Virus record (IMG/VR): IMGVR_UViG_3300023181_000026 | Location: 1 to 64,000 of that record | Source: a virus | Length of the DNA: 64,000 nucleotides | Reading direction: 5' to 3' (one strand) | Part shown: positions 3,500 through 24,128 of the stretch, piece after piece | Numbering within the stretch: the first letter of the stretch is position 1 | How the letters are laid out: each line of letters opens with the position of its first letter | Notes under the pieces: generated by a model | What the model was told of the DNA's origin: nothing | Seen by the model: the letters and a program-made list of their open reading frames with translations, nothing else | Database searches by the model: none | Made by a program: the position numbers and the translations under genes

Positions 3500-4613
3500 A
3501 AGTTCAAAAGAATCTACGAAAGAAAGTTTCAATAGAATAAAAGATGGGCAAACAGGTGCTTATAAACCTATTAAAACAAGATATGAGCACTTTAACACTC
3601 TATCTCACGGTGGTATAACGAAACAGAAAATATACTCTCTAGGAGCATTAAGTTCTTTTGGTAAAAGTCATATCTTAAGAAATATAGAAGAGGATATATT
3701 TAATGAACAATTAAATCCAAATTCCAAAGAAGAAGTTGTACTCTGTAAAGTGGACTGGGAGATGCAAAAAGAGGAAATGATTCTGGCAAGAGTACATTCT
3801 AAAACAGGGGTGGATTATTCAGAATTAATGTTTAGTACTCCTACCGAAGATGTCAAAAATGCATTTAATGAGGTCTATCTTGAATTGAATTCAGATCATA
3901 TTTATGAGACTTTTGACACATATAAGCCAGATAACTTTTATAATGATGTAAGAGAATTTACCGATCAACATCAAGATAAAAAACAGATAGTTCTGACAAT
4001 AGACAATATAAATTTAGTAGATACTGAAAATAGCGATGAGTCCACTGCCATAGCTAAACTTATTACCCACCTTATCCGACTGAAAAGAGAAGTTAAAAAT
4101 CTTAGTATAATAATATTATGTCAATTAAACAGGCAACTGAAAGAAAGAATTAATCCTAAAGAACATTTCCCAAGGACATCCGATTTCTACTTTTCCAGTA
4201 AAATAGAGCATGCATCAGATATTCAAATTGTAGTACATAACCCTTATTTGCTGGGGATTGATTCTTACGGTGCTGTTAATTATCAACGATACGAATATTT
4301 AAGTCAATATTTAGAGGAAAAGAACAAGTATGCTGTGTTCAGGACTAAAGGGCTTACCTTTTGGCATTATGTAAAAATAAGACTTAAGAACTCCCTTAAA
4401 GATTTTAGAGACCTATACATAGAAGAGGTTTTTGAAGTCGATAAAGATGATACTGAAATAAATAAAAATGTCTCAGCCGCTCCATCATTCCCCAACTTTA
4501 ATTCCACTAGCACAATTCCTGTATTTGAAGACACTCCTGTAAAAGTAACACCTTATAGTAATTTGAAGGATGCTTTTGATAGTCCTAATAAAGAAGATCA
4601 GGAGCCGTTTTGA
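3492..4613 (+). CDS. DnaB-type replicative helicase (SF4, RecA-fold ATPase)
   Basis: 373 residues, the length of a DnaB C-terminal motor without the N-terminal primase-binding domain. Walker A is GALSSFGKSH (Lys58, Ser59). Walker B is IVLTIDNINL near residues 166-175. The sensor-like strand LSIIILCQLNR (about 204-214) and the HASDIQIVVHNPY segment match the DnaB motifs that read the neighbouring nucleotide and DNA. It should unwind DNA at the phage fork with the family B polymerase and primase of this window. The C-terminal 50 residues are acidic and Pro/Ser-rich. A long intergenic region with a terminator follows. Confidence 0.88.
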   Translation: MIKSSKESTKESFNRIKDGQTGAYKPIKTRYEHFNTLSHGGITKQKIYSLGALSSFGKSHILRNIEEDIFNEQLNPNSKEEVVLCKVDWEMQKEEMILARVHSKTGVDYSELMFSTPTEDVKNAFNEVYLELNSDHIYETFDTYKPDNFYNDVREFTDQHQDKKQIVLTIDNINLVDTENSDESTAIAKLITHLIRLKREVKNLSIIILCQLNRQLKERINPKEHFPRTSDFYFSSKIEHASDIQIVVHNPYLLGIDSYGAVNYQRYEYLSQYLEEKNKYAVFRTKGLTFWHYVKIRLKNSLKDFRDLYIEEVFEVDKDDTEINKNVSAAPSFPNFNSTSTIPVFEDTPVKVTPYSNLKDAFDSPNKEDQEPF

Positions 4614-4831
4614 TAAAAAGCTCGTATATTATCTACTTTGATAGTTTTAAGATCTTTATGCCTAATATTTTATCTATTTTAAAGCATATTTTATTTAGCT
4701 TTTTAGTCGATTTTTAAATGAAATGTATAATATAATTAGCCGAAAAAGGATAGTCAGTAGTAGGCAAATAACAAACCAGTGACCCTAATCCCAAAGTTGT
4801 AATAATTAGAAAGCTGTTAGGTTATTTATTT
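4614..4831 (+). other. Non-coding leader/tail region with possible folded RNA
   Basis: The 330-base gap 4614-4943 is the longest without a gene in the window. Bases 4744-4831 are less AT-biased than the flanks. They can fold: 3' side TTAGG+TTATTT (4817-4827) is complementary to CCTAA (4784-4788) and AAATAA (4766-4771), leaving an asymmetric bulge. A TATAAT-like word occurs at about 4728. The terminator at 4832-4867 follows directly. It could be the 3' UTR of the helicase transcript or a small RNA; I cannot tell which. Confidence 0.35.
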
Positions 4832-4867
4832 CCCTTTGATTAATTAATTTTATTCAAGGGGATTTTT
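4832..4867 (+). terminator. Rho-independent terminator after the helicase
   Basis: Stem CCCTTTGA (4832-4839) pairs with TCAAGGGG (4854-4861) with one G-U pair, 14-base AT loop, followed by ATTTTTG. It ends the helicase transcript before a new promoter at 4890. Confidence 0.7.
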
Positions 4868-4889
4868 GTTAAAATATAGTTAATGGATA

Positions 4890-4919
4890 TTGTTTTTCAG
4901 TTTTTTATGCGGAAATTTG
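4890..4919 (+). promoter_or_regulatory. Bacteroidota-type promoter
   Basis: -33 TTG (4890-4892), 19-base spacer, then GAAATTTG (4912-4919), one mismatch to the Bacteroidota -7 consensus TAnnTTTG. It lies just after a terminator and 24 bases before an ATG, so it probably restarts transcription for the small genes from 4944 on. Confidence 0.5.
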
Positions 4920-4943
4920 CTTTAAACAAATAAAGTAAAGATC

Positions 4944-5087
4944 ATGAATACAATACATCTCATTGATGGAACATCGGTTTTAGATGTTGTTAAAATTACA
5001 TTTGGAGACCACGAAATAACAGTTCGCTCATTAACAAGCAGTGAAGATATAATAATTGAGTATGCAGATATTAATTTTATACAATAA
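4944..5087 (+). CDS. Mini-protein (47 aa)
   Basis: First gene after the terminator/promoter pair at 4832-4919. The 47-residue product alternates hydrophobic and polar residues (IHLIDGTSVLDVVKITF, HEITVRSL), suggesting a small beta protein. No family recognised. Confidence 0.55.
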   Translation: MNTIHLIDGTSVLDVVKITFGDHEITVRSLTSSEDIIIEYADINFIQ

Positions 5088-5090
5088 AAT

Positions 5091-5336
5091 ATGGGATTTA
5101 ATTATAAATGGACTTGTCCTCAAATTGATAGAGCTATAGATTATATAAGAGGGCAATTAGGTGAGAACATATATAGTATGATAGAAAATTATATAGAGGA
5201 GATTAGAGAGAGTAATTCTCATATAAGGGATGCCGCCAATAAACAAATAGATGATTTGGAAGATGAATATACAAGACAGATTGAAGCCCTCAAAGAAGAA
5301 ATACAAGACTTAATAGATAAATTAGAAAACCAATAA
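5091..5336 (+). CDS. Coiled-coil hypothetical protein (81 aa)
   Basis: From about residue 30 the sequence is a continuous acidic/basic heptad-like helix (IDDLEDEYTRQIEALKEEI), so it probably dimerises as a coiled coil. The N-terminus (FNYKWTCPQIDRAIDYIRGQ) looks like a separate small helical unit. Similar proteins are common in phages of Bacteroidota. Function unknown. Confidence 0.68.
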   Translation: MGFNYKWTCPQIDRAIDYIRGQLGENIYSMIENYIEEIRESNSHIRDAANKQIDDLEDEYTRQIEALKEEIQDLIDKLENQ

Positions 5337-7971: not shown

Positions 7972-8117
7972 TGGAATTAACAATAAAACAAATAATTTCT
8001 AAAGAGAATATAGAGGCTAGAAGAAAAGCTGAATTAATATATTACAATTTATTCGGCGCGCCAAAAACTCATAAAGAAGTGGCAGAAAGTTTCAATATAA
8101 TACATGACATTAAATGA
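7971..8117 (+). CDS. Mini-protein (48 aa)
   Basis: 48 residues, start overlapping the previous stop by one base. The C-terminal part (AELIYYNLFGAPKTHKEVAES) echoes the previous protein's C-terminus and could form a helix-turn-helix-like unit. A 9-base GC-only word (8054-8062) lies inside it. Function unknown. Confidence 0.5.
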   Translation: MELTIKQIISKENIEARRKAELIYYNLFGAPKTHKEVAESFNIIHDIK

Positions 8118-8124
8118 ATAATTT

Positions 8125-8427
8125 ATGGATAACTTAATAATCTTACACTTACAAGAGCACACTGTATCCATAAATGATAAACCTGTATTCAATCATATAT
8201 TCGAAGTTTTTGAAAATCTGGGAGACTTAAAAGCATTTAAGAAATCTTATATTCCGCCCCATAAAAGTGAATACAATAAACAAAAAGTTTATAAAGATGT
8301 TTTTAAACTAGGGAACTTTACTGTTGGAATTTCTATATGTAATGAAACAGAATGGAGATGGATAAGAGGATTGACAAATATAAAAGATTCTTTTGGTAAT
8401 TATGTTTATATAGATCAAGGGTATTAA
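8125..8427 (+). CDS. Hypothetical protein (100 aa)
   Basis: Protein of unknown function (NLIILHLQEHTVSINDKPVF, NETEWRWIRGLTNIKDSFG) beginning with a beta-like segment. It is the last intact gene before the DNA polymerase. The same frame continues open after its TAA for another 40 codons (see 8428-8547). Confidence 0.65.
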   Translation: MDNLIILHLQEHTVSINDKPVFNHIFEVFENLGDLKAFKKSYIPPHKSEYNKQKVYKDVFKLGNFTVGISICNETEWRWIRGLTNIKDSFGNYVYIDQGY

Positions 8428-8547
8428 AATGAAATATATAAATTAGCTTTTAATGTTGTACTATTATTAGCTTATATCGCGCGAAAAAAGAAAGCGTCAG
8501 CAAGCTATAAAAACAGAAAGAAAAAACAAGCTAAATCATTGATATGA
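8428..8547 (+). pseudogene. Remnant of a small membrane protein with no start codon
   Basis: An open stretch without ATG encodes a hydrophobic segment (LAFNVVLLLAYIA) followed by a very basic tail (RKKKASASYKNRKKKQ), the look of a one-pass membrane protein. The only nearby ATG (8429-8435 region) is in another frame and stops after five codons, so the start may have been lost by a one-base change. It contains the GC word at 8478 and one copy of the 31-bp inverted repeat. Confidence 0.35.
8486..8516 (+). repeat. 31-bp repeat, copy 1 (inverted copy at 24603)
   Basis: A perfect 31-base match, in reverse complement, to 24603-24633. The core reads GAAAGCGTCAGCAAGC followed by TATAAAAACAG. In both places the GC-only micro-motif lies a few bases to the same side (CGCGCG here, CGGCGG there). 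It sits 27 bases before the DNA polymerase start. Confidence 0.9.
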
Positions 8548-10634
8548 AAGCATTAGAAGAAACACATCAATCACCTATATTTATTACATATGATATAGAG
8601 ACTTTCTATTCGATCTTTTGTGTTGTATTCAAATATAAAGACAGATATAAAATATTTGAAATCAGTGAAAGAATAGACCAAGAAAAAGAATTAAAAGCTT
8701 TTCTCAGGGAGGCGATAGAAAAAGGATGGTTTCTTTGTGGATTTAATAACTGTAGATTTGATGGTCAAGTATTACAATGGATTTTGAATGGTAAAAATGG
8801 TTTATCTAAATTATCTGGCGTAGAAAAAGCAAAAGCTATAATGGAATTTGCATCTGGAGTAATTACTAAAATTAACAACAGAGAATTTCCACCTTATTCG
8901 GAAGATAAAATTCAGTTCAAACAACTAGATTTATTTCTTCAGAACCATTACAATAACGCCGCTCGTTTTTCGGGATTAAAATGGATTGAATATAGTATGA
9001 ATTTTGAGAAAATTCAAGATTTACCCTATAAATTTGATGAGTATTTAGAAAGTGATAAATTTGATGATGTAATAGATTATTGCAAAAACGATGTAAATGC
9101 AACAGAAACTTTCTTTTATAAATGTAAAGATTTATTACAACTACGATTTACTCAACAGTCGGAAAATCCACATTTATTATTACTGAATAAATCTGATAGT
9201 ACAATAGGTGAAATGCTATTTTTAGATATGATGGCTAATAAGTTGGCAGTAGATAAAAATATACTAAAGAAAAAGCAGACTCATCATAAATCCATAAAGT
9301 TAAAAGATGTTATTCTGCCTTATATAAAATTTGAAACGGCTGAGTTTAATAGCGTTTTAGAATTCTTCAAAGAGCAGGAAATAACTAGTACAAAAGATGT
9401 TTTCAAACACATGATGGTATATGATGGATTGGAATATTTCTATGGATTGGGTGGTCTACACGCTGCAAGAGGTAATTCTATAGTAAAATCAGATAATGAA
9501 AATATTGTATTGTCAATAGATTTTCAAAGTTTCTATCCTAATATTTCAATTAAGAATCGCTTTTATCCAAAACATTTATCGGAATCTTTCTGCGATCTTT
9601 ACGAAGAACTTTTTGAAAAAAGAAAATTAATACCTAAATCGAATCCTCAAAATACAGCAATTAAGCTACTTTTGAACGCAACATTTGGAAAAGGGGGTGA
9701 TATTTATAGCTTCCTTTACGATAAATTTTTTCAAATGTCTATTACTGTAAATGGTCAATTGATATTATCAATGTTATGTGAGCAATTATCACAGATAGAT
9801 GGTGTCAGAATGCATATGGTAAATACAGATGGGGCGGAGTTGATAGTACCAAGGAATAAAAAACGAGAGGTATACAACGTGTGTTTAGAAATTGAAAAAC
9901 TTACTCAGCTTACTTTAGAATACAGTGTGTATGATAAATTATTTACTAGAGACATTAATAATTATCTAGGAATTGATATAAAAGGTAAAATTAAAACAAA
10001 AGGTGCATTTGAAATAGACGTAGAATATCATAAGAACAGGTCTTCTCGTATCACTCAGATAGCTGTAAAGCGTTATTTTGTAGACGGAGTAGCTGTGGAA
10101 GATACTATAAAAAATCATCTCTCTGGAGCTCTATATGAAGGTATAGAAAATCAGGGTATATATGATTTTTGTATTGGTAAGAAGATTAAAAGTAATCAGA
10201 ATTATACTTTAGAAACAGAATCGGAAATTATTAAAAATATTGAAGATAAGGTTATCCGTTTTTATGTTTCCAATGATGGAGTATTCTTGTATAAGAATTA
10301 CAACGATGGAAGAAAAGAAGTTACTGTTGGTAATAATAAAGTAACAATGTTTATGGATTATTATGAAAGTGAAGATTACCATATAAATTATGATTATTAT
10401 ATAGAACAAGCGAATAGAATTATTTTTGAAGTTGACGGTACTAATGATAGATTGGCAGTAGAGGCAAAAGAAAAGCGAGAAAAAGAAAAACTACAGAAAG
10501 AGGAAGAGAATTATTTAAAATATTGTATAAATAAAATCCCGACGCAGCTTCAGTATGATCAATACTGGAGATCGCATTGTGAAGATAAATACGGTAAGCC
10601 ACAAGAAATAAAACCAAGTAAAGCAAAAGTATAA
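8544..10634 (+). CDS. DNA polymerase, family B, with 3'-5' exonuclease
   Basis: 696 residues with a full motif set. Exonuclease: ITYDIETF (Asp17, Glu19), FNNCRFDG (Asn69, Asp73) and YCKNDVNATE (about 178-187). Polymerase: motif A LSIDFQSFYPN (about 322-332), motif B IKLLLNATFGK (about 371-381), motif C NTDGAEL (about 427-433). It copies phage DNA with proofreading. Some crAss-like phages carry this compact PolB in place of a family A enzyme. The C-terminal 60 residues are Lys/Glu-rich and charged. Its ATG overlaps the preceding remnant; a promoter and small-RNA-like unit follow 17 bases downstream. Confidence 0.93.
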   Translation: MKALEETHQSPIFITYDIETFYSIFCVVFKYKDRYKIFEISERIDQEKELKAFLREAIEKGWFLCGFNNCRFDGQVLQWILNGKNGLSKLSGVEKAKAIMEFASGVITKINNREFPPYSEDKIQFKQLDLFLQNHYNNAARFSGLKWIEYSMNFEKIQDLPYKFDEYLESDKFDDVIDYCKNDVNATETFFYKCKDLLQLRFTQQSENPHLLLLNKSDSTIGEMLFLDMMANKLAVDKNILKKKQTHHKSIKLKDVILPYIKFETAEFNSVLEFFKEQEITSTKDVFKHMMVYDGLEYFYGLGGLHAARGNSIVKSDNENIVLSIDFQSFYPNISIKNRFYPKHLSESFCDLYEELFEKRKLIPKSNPQNTAIKLLLNATFGKGGDIYSFLYDKFFQMSITVNGQLILSMLCEQLSQIDGVRMHMVNTDGAELIVPRNKKREVYNVCLEIEKLTQLTLEYSVYDKLFTRDINNYLGIDIKGKIKTKGAFEIDVEYHKNRSSRITQIAVKRYFVDGVAVEDTIKNHLSGALYEGIENQGIYDFCIGKKIKSNQNYTLETESEIIKNIEDKVIRFYVSNDGVFLYKNYNDGRKEVTVGNNKVTMFMDYYESEDYHINYDYYIEQANRIIFEVDGTNDRLAVEAKEKREKEKLQKEEENYLKYCINKIPTQLQYDQYWRSHCEDKYGKPQEIKPSKAKV

Positions 10635-10650
10635 TAAATTCTATTATTTA

Positions 10651-10682
10651 TTTGTGAATGTCGATTATAATTCATAAGTTTG
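10651..10682 (+). promoter_or_regulatory. Bacteroidota-type promoter for a small RNA or leader
   Basis: -33 TTTG (10651-10654), 20-base spacer, -7 TAAGTTTG (10675-10682), an exact fit to TAnnTTTG. Transcription should begin near 10687-10690, just ahead of the structured RNA. Confidence 0.65.
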
Positions 10683-10687
10683 CTGGG

Positions 10688-10795
10688 TAGTTGAAAGGTC
10701 AAGCTCAGTTACAATGAAAAATATATTTAAATATCGGAACTGTCCGTCTATAGATCTTGCTTGACCCAAGTGATATAGACGGCTTTTCTGTTTTT
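10688..10795 (+). ncRNA. Putative structured small RNA (about 105 nt) with pseudoknot
   Basis: The transcript expected from the promoter at 10651-10682 contains four pairings. GGTCAAGC (10697-10704) is perfectly complementary to GCTTGACC (10759-10766). CAGTT (10706-10710) pairs with AACTG (10738-10742). ATATTTAAATAT in between is self-complementary. CCGTCTATA (10744-10752) pairs with TATAGACGG (10774-10782) and is followed by a T-rich tract. Because GCTTGACC lies in the loop of the last hairpin, the first pairing would form a pseudoknot. No long reading frame is present. It is either a free small RNA ending at the terminator or an attenuated leader of the GIY-YIG gene. Confidence 0.55.
10744..10795 (+). 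terminator. Strong rho-independent terminator
   Basis: Perfect 9-bp stem CCGTCTATA/TATAGACGG with a 21-base loop, followed by CTTTTCTGTTTTT. It ends the putative small RNA 14 bases before the GIY-YIG gene. Confidence 0.85.
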
Positions 10796-10808
10796 ACAAG
10801 CCATAGAC

Positions 10809-11672
10809 ATGCAAAACTTTAACACAGAAAAATTAAAAACACAAATTGGAGTTTATGAAATTAGGAATATTATAAATAATAAAGTTTACATAGGTTCCAC
10901 CATTATGTCATTTCATAGAAGATGGGATCATCATCGGTCTTTATTAAGAGCAAATACTCATAAAAATGTCCATCTCCAAAGAGCTTGGAATAAACATGGT
11001 GAAGAGAACTTTATTTTCAACGTACTAGAAATAGTTGCTGAGTGCTGTACATTAGATGTGGAACAAACTTATTTGGATACAATTTCTGAAAAATATAATA
11101 TAAATCCTCTTGCTTCTGGAACTCCAAACATGTCACAAGAGACTATTGATAAAAGAGCAGCCAGTTTTAAAATAACAACTTCTATTTCATTAAATTACTT
11201 GAAAAAAGTTAGAAGTGGAGAAATCAATATTGAAGATGTCCCTGATAAATATTTAAAGTTAGTTAGATATAGATTAGAATCGGTGCCTTGGAACAAAGGT
11301 CTAACTTTAGAAGATACAGATTACTCATATCTTAGGGTGCCGAAAACAACAACAGATAAATTAAAACAGGCACATAAAAATACATCTATAAGGCATAGAG
11401 AATCCGCTCCTGAAATATTTGTATACAATAAAGAAGGTTCGTTTTTAGGTAGTTGGAATTGTTCTCAGGATTTAGCAGATTGGTCTAAAACAGATGAAAA
11501 TAATCTGCCTATAGTTTCGAGATTTAAAGGTGATATGAGAATGGGAATTCCAGTTAAACATTTACTAGCATCTGGTATAAATAAATCTGCAAATACAGGA
11601 GAACCTTACAAAGGAATTTACTTTTCTTATACTCCTCTCTCTGTTAAATCTTTCTTAAAGACAGTGGATTAG
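10809..11672 (+). CDS. GIY-YIG homing endonuclease
   Basis: 287 residues. The GIY-YIG core is IGVYEIRN (Gly14-Tyr16) and KVYIGS (Tyr27-Gly29), with Arg37/Arg38, the RAWNKHGEENF helix start and the metal-binding Glu85 in VEQTYL. After it come NUMOD3-like (PWNKGLTLEDTDYSYLR) and NUMOD1-like (IFVYNKEGSFLGSWNCSQDLA) DNA-binding segments. The enzyme should nick or cut a specific site in intron- or gene-free relatives and copy itself by homing. It stands directly after the polymerase, a usual homing position, and behind a terminator, so it may be poorly expressed from upstream. Confidence 0.88.
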   Translation: MQNFNTEKLKTQIGVYEIRNIINNKVYIGSTIMSFHRRWDHHRSLLRANTHKNVHLQRAWNKHGEENFIFNVLEIVAECCTLDVEQTYLDTISEKYNINPLASGTPNMSQETIDKRAASFKITTSISLNYLKKVRSGEINIEDVPDKYLKLVRYRLESVPWNKGLTLEDTDYSYLRVPKTTTDKLKQAHKNTSIRHRESAPEIFVYNKEGSFLGSWNCSQDLADWSKTDENNLPIVSRFKGDMRMGIPVKHLLASGINKSANTGEPYKGIYFSYTPLSVKSFLKTVD

Positions 11673-11687
11673 TTTGTAATTATTCTG

Positions 11688-11695
11688 TATCTTTG
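11688..11695 (+). promoter_or_regulatory. Possible promoter -7 element
   Basis: TATCTTTG fits the Bacteroidota -7 consensus TAnnTTTG in the 102-base gap after the GIY-YIG gene. No TTG lies at the expected -33 distance, so the call is weak. It would serve the array from 11775 on. Confidence 0.35.
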
Positions 11696-11774
11696 TTAAT
11701 ATCAGTTCTTTAGAGACTTGTTATTTCTTTTTACGCGGCGATTTTAAAAACAAAACAATTAATAAAATATAGGT

Positions 11775-11966
11775 ATGAACAGATATATAATAACAAAACT
11801 TAAAAAAGACAGGACTGAAAGGTTTATTTTAGCATTAGATTTAAAAACATGGTTGCCATTATCTAAAAGTAAAAATGCAGCTTTCCTAAATATCAATGAA
11901 GCTCTTGATGTTATAAAGAAGTTAAATCCAGACGAAAATTATTATTATTTAAAAACTAACATATGA
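11775..11966 (+). CDS. Hypothetical protein (63 aa)
   Basis: Basic protein (MNRYIITKLKKDRTERFILALDL). No family recognised. It heads a new run of small genes after the GIY-YIG gene and is coupled to the next by ATGA. Confidence 0.6.
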   Translation: MNRYIITKLKKDRTERFILALDLKTWLPLSKSKNAAFLNINEALDVIKKLNPDENYYYLKTNI

Positions 11967-23510: not shown

Positions 23511-24128
23511 ATGGAAAGAATAGTACAAGATTTCACATTAGCTCCTTTGTTGTATATAAACGACGAGGGAGTTGAATGTGTAGAAAGATGGCTTCCTGTA
23601 AAAGGATTTGAAGATTATTATGAAGTAAGTGATTTAGGAAGATTTAAAGCCTTAGATAGAGTTATTACGCGCCATAATGGAGTAAAGGAATCAAAACCGT
23701 CCAGAATATTAAAAAACTTATATTATAGTAACGGGTACTGTCAATTAATGTTTTATGTGGATAAAGTTAGAAGTACTTTTATAGCACATAGGGTTGTGGC
23801 GGAACACTTTATTCCTAACCCTCATAATTTACCTATAGTTAATCATAAAGATTTGTCTAGGGATAATAATAAAGTTTCTAACCTAGAATGGATGAATCAC
23901 TCTCAAAATGCATTGCACGCTGTTAAGGGCGGAAAGAAACTAGGAGGTGCGTTACACGGAACAAACAATAAAAACGCAAAGGTCAATGATGATATTGTAA
24001 GAGAGATTAGAGCAAGCAAGGTAAAAGGGGTACACAATAAAGAACTTTTCAATAAATATTGCCACTTAATATCTAAAAGTACTTTCAGTAATATAGCTAA
24101 TGGTCAGGGATGGAGTCATGTAAAATAA
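23511..24128 (+). CDS. NUMOD4-HNH homing endonuclease
   Basis: 205 residues. NUMOD4 motif WLPVKGFEDYYEVSDLGRFK (about 26-45), HNH_3 core IVNHKDLSRDN then KVSNLEWM (about 118-138), and a C-terminal helix-turn-helix segment (IVREIRASKVKGVHNKEL). It should make a site-specific cut for homing. It begins two bases after the metallophosphoesterase stop, so it may have inserted between two genes of one operon. Confidence 0.88.
   Translation: MERIVQDFTLAPLLYINDEGVECVERWLPVKGFEDYYEVSDLGRFKALDRVITRHNGVKESKPSRILKNLYYSNGYCQLMFYVDKVRSTFIAHRVVAEHFIPNPHNLPIVNHKDLSRDNNKVSNLEWMNHSQNALHAVKGGKKLGGALHGTNNKNAKVNDDIVREIRASKVKGVHNKELFNKYCHLISKSTFSNIANGQGWSHVK

Follow-up and report, generated by a model that had tools for sequence, protein, structure and literature searches.

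A kissing-loop leader RNA in front of phage homing endonuclease genes, a probable RNA brake of a new kind

The window analysed here, a stretch of 64,000 nucleotides of viral DNA, is one part of a virus record of 131.6 kb. A DNA polymerase gene (8544-10634) is the upstream neighbour of the interval 10651-10795, which is followed by the gene of a GIY-YIG homing endonuclease, and no long plus-strand open reading frame was found in the gap between the two genes (10634 to 10809). A preliminary description of this DNA had proposed that a promoter, a compact fold and a terminator form one unit at 10651-10795, and the unit is present in the sequence as claimed. Its features, with their flanking gene, are as follows.

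10651-10682, plus strand: Bacteroidota-type promoter TTTG-N20-TAAGTTTG, from the sequence and listed among promoter-like sites (boxes read as TTTG at 10651-10654, N20, and TAAGTTTG at 10675-10682)
10688-10711, plus strand: 5' hairpin, on comparative grounds (TAGTTGA at 10688-10694, loop AAGGTCAAGC at 10695-10704, TCAGTTA at 10705-10711)
10697-10703, plus strand: GGTCAAG, kissing strand of the 5' loop, perfectly complementary to the apical loop of the terminator
10712-10743, plus strand: A/U-rich linker of 32 nt, from the sequence (13-44 nt among copies)
10744-10782, plus strand: terminator hairpin, from the sequence and fold prediction
10744-10752 and 10774-10782, plus strand: terminator outer stem, CCGTCTATA with TATAGACGG
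10756-10759 and 10767-10770, plus strand: terminator inner stem, CTTG with CAAG
10760-10766, plus strand: terminator apical loop CTTGACC, the whole loop complementary to GGTCAAG
10784-10795, plus strand: U-rich termination tract TTTTCTGTTTTT, from the sequence
10796-10808, plus strand: read-through leader beginning ACAAGCC, resembling TTTATAAGCC of the related loci L002 and L003
10809-11672, plus strand: GIY-YIG homing endonuclease gene, 287 aa (Pfam GIY-YIG, 7.8e-8; PHROG homing endonuclease)

The 9-bp terminator stem that had been claimed lies at 10744-10752 and 10774-10782, and the claimed complementarity between an upstream strand and the terminator loop is exact: GGTCAAGC (10697-10704) is the reverse complement of GCTTGACC (10759-10766), now narrowed to the kissing loops GGTCAAG and CTTGACC. 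Since the upstream strand resides within the loop of the 5' hairpin, the contact is a loop-loop contact, and what had been called a pseudoknot is, as judged from the sequence, an intramolecular kissing-loop complex that leaves the terminator stem intact. Opening of the terminator by the upstream strand, which had also been suggested, was not supported, as the strand pairs with the apical loop of 6-8 nt and not with the stem, and is thus compatible with the terminator hairpin. Of a further proposed pairing, CAGTT (10706-10710) with AACTG, both segments are present, but CAGTT sits in the 3' arm of the proposed 5' hairpin and the pairing was not seen in relatives. A leader peptide from a short open reading frame within the RNA (ATG at 10714, 16 codons) was rejected, being absent from the other copies.

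The predicted folding energy of the interval is -30.0 kcal/mol, whereas shuffled sequences average -21.3 (z = -2.6). The energy model by itself favours different pairings for the 5' part, and the 5' stem proposed for the window copy derives mainly from comparison with other copies, in which the kissing strand likewise lies within a 5' hairpin loop. Given the terminator, dinucleotide shuffling of the upstream part yields p = 0.008 for the loop complementarity. The pair is the best strand/terminator match of its own genome, yet taken alone it is genome-wide within chance; it is its position after the promoter, together with its recurrence, that makes it clearly non-random.

Close homologues of the polymerase are found at L002, L003 (genome G001), L133 (G002) and L134 (G003), with L137 more distant; a second polymerase scan returned the same five loci and nothing further, and a polymerase scan of genome contigs returned none. 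L002 and L003, which were picked for polymerase homology and not for structure, have a gap between the polymerase and the next gene that contains the same anatomy in unrelated letters. The kissing strand starts 16 nt (L002) and 15 nt (L003) after the TAnnTTTG box, as against 15 nt in the window, and the shuffle-test p values are 0.0115 and 0.007. The kissing pairs are ATACGAG/CTCGTAT in L002 and TGGCGG/CCGCCA in L003, so that the compensatory change anticipated for GGTCAAGC and GCTTGACC was found in the two same-locus relatives with a leader, as wholly different yet complementary pairs. The homing families behind the three leaders differ (GIY-YIG; GIY-YIG with NUMOD3; T5orf172). G002 and G003 have no such RNA at this site: there the polymerase gene runs at its end straight into an overlapping LAGLIDADG or GIY-YIG gene. 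The more distant polymerase relatives L184-L186 have neither the RNA nor a homing gene downstream.

Two further observations concern this locus. The site right after the polymerase gene (window 10635-11672) is a hot spot for homing genes, with GIY-YIG, T5orf172 and LAGLIDADG occupants in five phages (the window, L002, L003, L133 and L134). The stretch that follows the terminator (TTTTCT...TTTAYAAGCC) is alike in the three polymerase-linked copies despite their differing homing genes (window 10784-10802; L002 ~7986-8005; L003 ~8210-8232).

Further copies were sought in four genomes, G000, which is the window's own record, and G001-G003, by a first scan that asked for a promoter, a kissing strand and a terminator and a stricter second scan that adds the 5' hairpin, and in viral loci from elsewhere; one sample of 126 unrelated viral loci yielded L125 and L051, and another of 120, selected for a promoter, yielded L216 and L265, the latter with CATATTTG as its promoter box. 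Together with the reading of leaders, the scans give 13 copies in total, and in 11 of them the promoter box lies 11-20 nt ahead of the kissing strand, which is located at +16 or +17 in four (G001 79k, G002 132k, G002 122k and G003 51k). In G000 120.9k and G002 54k, the fold is present with a distant or unrecognised promoter, and two copies have a weak 5' hairpin of 3 bp. The 5' loop and the apical loop are complementary over 6-8 nt and covary between copies: each apical loop matches only its own partner, over 6-7 nt, and those of unrelated copies over at most 4 nt. Six positions distinguish G002 132k from its near-identical orthologue G003 51k, of which two form a compensatory inner-stem pair (GGCG/CGTC to GGCA/TGCC), two are one-sided changes that keep the pair and two are unpaired, none being disruptive; coming from two sequences only, this covariation is supportive of the fold and not decisive.

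Leaders at G000 117776 and G001 59k were tested as copies and rejected, as the fold does not fit. The region G000 ~117776-117900, outside the window, consists of a promoter, a non-coding, structured-looking stretch and a strong terminator, and another such region is found at ~98265. Promoter-led non-coding stretches of ~150-230 nt lie just upstream of tRNA-like sequences at G003 126216 (minus strand) and G001 30239, and are perhaps another phage RNA. Window 11690-11775 and many leaders of G001-G003 carry a promoter, a U-rich stretch and TTTTTNCGCG or TTTTTCCGCG before the start codon, without a terminator.

A strict criterion (score, promoter, two hairpins, kissing contact and a nearby ATG) gave nine matches in ~3 Mb of phage DNA, five in the four genomes plus L002 and two and two in the other sets, and none in 917 kb of bacterial loci, in 204 kb of sequence from Crassvirales and Flavobacterium phage FpV4, or in any of the ten order-2 Markov replicates made of each set. 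An earlier version of the test, in which no 5' hairpin was demanded, counted 6 and 2 matches, against 0 and 1 in six replicates. The scan rules were written only after the first copies were known, which makes the two further samples the fairer test, and the CATATTTG box joined the promoter rule after L265 was known. A genome-wide scan for strand and terminator without promoter or hairpin rules did no better than chance, and the argument therefore rests on the added rules and on recurrence. Some bacterial loci scored highly but had no promoter, among them L371, which precedes a recombinase-like open reading frame; these were judged chance or unrelated.

The RNA's own sequence, searched in phages and as an exact pattern in viral contigs, returned nothing; the tail pattern TTTTCTN(0-6)TTTAYAAGCC gave nearly only chance matches, and a tighter version gave L002 plus three chance matches. 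BLAST of the leaders of L216, L265, L125 and L051 in phages returned coding parts only or nothing. Rfam 15 at the gathering score matched nothing in the window and eight copy loci except one tRNA, and weak-threshold searches with the window copy and L216 gave chance-level matches only. No copies were found in Crassvirales phages and Flavobacterium phage FpV4, or in parts of two cultured Tenacibaculum and Flavobacterium phages and one faecal phage scaffold. Membership of the crAss-like phages, which had been presumed for the source virus, was not established, its PHROG matches being to virion-protein and replication functions only.

A homing endonuclease gene lies directly behind the RNA in eight of the 13 copies and belongs to one of at least five families: GIY-YIG (two), T5orf172 or phrog_681 endonuclease (two), phrog_953 HNH, endonuclease VII, and NUMOD4-HNH (two; L125 by Pfam, L265 by its sequence only). 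Endonucleases are estimated at a few percent of the genes in the four genomes, where family searches gave ~15-20 matches. G001 carries two paralogous homing genes of 33% identity with one RNA copy each. In L265, the RNA and its homing gene are flanked upstream by a displaced remnant of the downstream gene, 13 codons long, and downstream by the restored start of that gene, and the RNA is therefore part of the inserted unit; this cassette, on the reverse strand at about 4600-5330, splits the start of the downstream gene, which we read, from position and sequence, as a terminase small subunit. The linkage, like the anatomy, the covariation and the recurrence, is there in the sequences themselves.

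Neither partner of this association is invariable. The copies G003 51k, G002 54k, L051, L216 (followed by a Lin1244_N protein) and G000 121k lack an endonuclease, so the device is not exclusive to homing genes. Several homing genes in copy-bearing genomes likewise have no RNA; in the four genomes such genes lie mostly close behind another gene or a plain promoter, and the homing genes of crAss-like phages are without the RNA. Two further HNH_3 genes of the window, at ~2657-2911 and 23511-23912, have no comparable leader according to the structural scan, which gave one weak match before the second of them.

In the gene-linked copies, the start codon follows the terminator stem by 9-26 nt (26 nt in the window), and the space between them is free of promoters. 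The anatomy is that of an attenuator: a promoter, a terminator upstream of a coding sequence, and no promoter between. With no room for a promoter, these genes can be reached only by read-through, whether of the terminator or of upstream transcripts, which favours the attenuator reading. The preliminary description had left a free RNA and an attenuator side by side; the unit is real, and start-codon distance and cassette linkage favour an attenuating leader. We therefore put at roughly 0.5, or slightly above, the probability that the interval encodes a ~100-nt leader RNA acting as a transcription attenuator for homing cassettes, its output being a short stable RNA and rare read-through.

For transcript start, termination and the effect of the loop contact, we infer the following course. 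RNA polymerase would start near 10688, and the 5' hairpin would fold; as the terminator hairpin emerges, its apical loop would kiss the 5' loop, and this loop-loop clamp may favour completion of the A/U-rich, interrupted terminator stem, so that most transcripts would end as a compact RNA of ~105 nt. Only occasional read-through would then generate endonuclease mRNA. A mobile cassette that encodes a DNA-cutting enzyme would be well served by a promoter that is self-sufficient yet quiet. The clamp might be constitutive, or might be opened by a signal such as a ribosome, a phage protein or a trans RNA.

In the foremost alternative, appreciably less probable, the unit encodes a free small RNA of the phage that acts in trans. 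The terminator would form its end, and the kissing loops would hide a seed or protect the ends; homing genes would collect behind it since insertion after a terminator does no harm. The endonuclease-free copies keep this explanation alive: G003 51k retains the RNA with no homing gene directly behind and a next gene that has its own promoter-like sequence, where the orthologous G002 copy has a homing gene, and G002 54k has no near gene. Against it stand the start codons only 9-26 nt behind the terminator stem, the position of the L265 RNA inside an inserted cassette, and the loops of the copies, which share no common sequence and therefore no common target.

An RNA that antagonises the downstream protein, in the manner of AbiF or type III toxin–antitoxin systems, would be abundant and terminated and would restrain a nuclease made by read-through; this reading is unlikely. 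The order of parts is that of RCd22 and abiF in C. difficile, where the RNA is abundant, transcription mostly stops short of the gene and the protein is countered by the RNA (PMC12373285). The same system is a precedent for the attenuator reading: premature termination there controls the downstream gene with measured read-through, and deletion of RCd22 raises abiF expression 17-fold (PMC12373285). Like RCd22 (RF03085) and the type III toxin–antitoxin RNAs (ToxI), the phage unit runs from a promoter through a structured RNA of ~100-130 nt and an intrinsic terminator to a read-through gene. In contrast, RCd22 contains a conserved pair of abiF motifs and has a single protein family as its binding partner, whereas the phage RNA is unconserved in sequence, includes the terminator in a loop-loop contact and precedes unrelated nuclease families and even non-nucleases. 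No loop or stem sequence is common to the copies, no match to RF03085 or the AbiF-family RNA was found, and the protein downstream in the window is a GIY-YIG enzyme. Finally, a plain promoter and a plain terminator with coincidental loop complementarity, a reading that the modest single-copy statistics might invite, is very improbable in view of the recurrence of covarying loops in orthologues, paralogues and unrelated phages against none in Markov controls.

The attenuating leader also has parallels among known ways of restraining homing genes. Phage T4 keeps such genes in check with terminators, hairpins and late promoters; mobE and segF are limited by terminators, of which that of mobE stops ~30% of transcripts (PMC2988022). 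As in T4-type regulation (the hairpins of I-TevI, segB and Aeh1 mobE that hide the ribosome-binding site), RNA structure near the 5' end of the gene would restrain expression. The mobE and segF terminators, however, lie within the coding region, and a 5' hairpin or kissing loop is undescribed there; the phage leader, unlike them, has its own promoter. Sequestration of the ribosome-binding site does not fit the copies, in which the terminator stem ends 9-26 nt ahead of the ATG.

HEARO, the omega RNA of IscB, is a non-coding RNA beside an HNH-type gene. The phage RNA differs in accompanying several nuclease families, no Rfam match was obtained, and the window's protein matches GIY-YIG. In riboswitches and ANTAR-type attenuators, formation of a leader terminator is tied to tertiary or paired-hairpin structure; these have conserved ligand- or protein-binding residues, whereas in the phage RNA only complementarity is conserved. 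Leaders of the attenuator type are thus already known, and in the literature that could be searched no description was found of the kissing architecture or of its link to homing cassettes. The RNA is probably a brake of a new kind on homing genes, to judge from its sequence features, and the chances are about even that it represents a widespread class of phage RNA, defined by architecture, that serves as a private governor for several homing families and is also used by other genes.

How a free-standing homing endonuclease can bring a private promoter without harm to the phage is understood mainly from T4. If the attenuator reading is correct, a portable, nuclease-independent RNA brake would explain how a cassette can land behind new genes, and a terminator would be coupled to a tertiary contact between two loops, the letters of which can drift freely. 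Such a class of RNA would have been missed by homology-based discovery, and the architecture search could be run on any phage collection.
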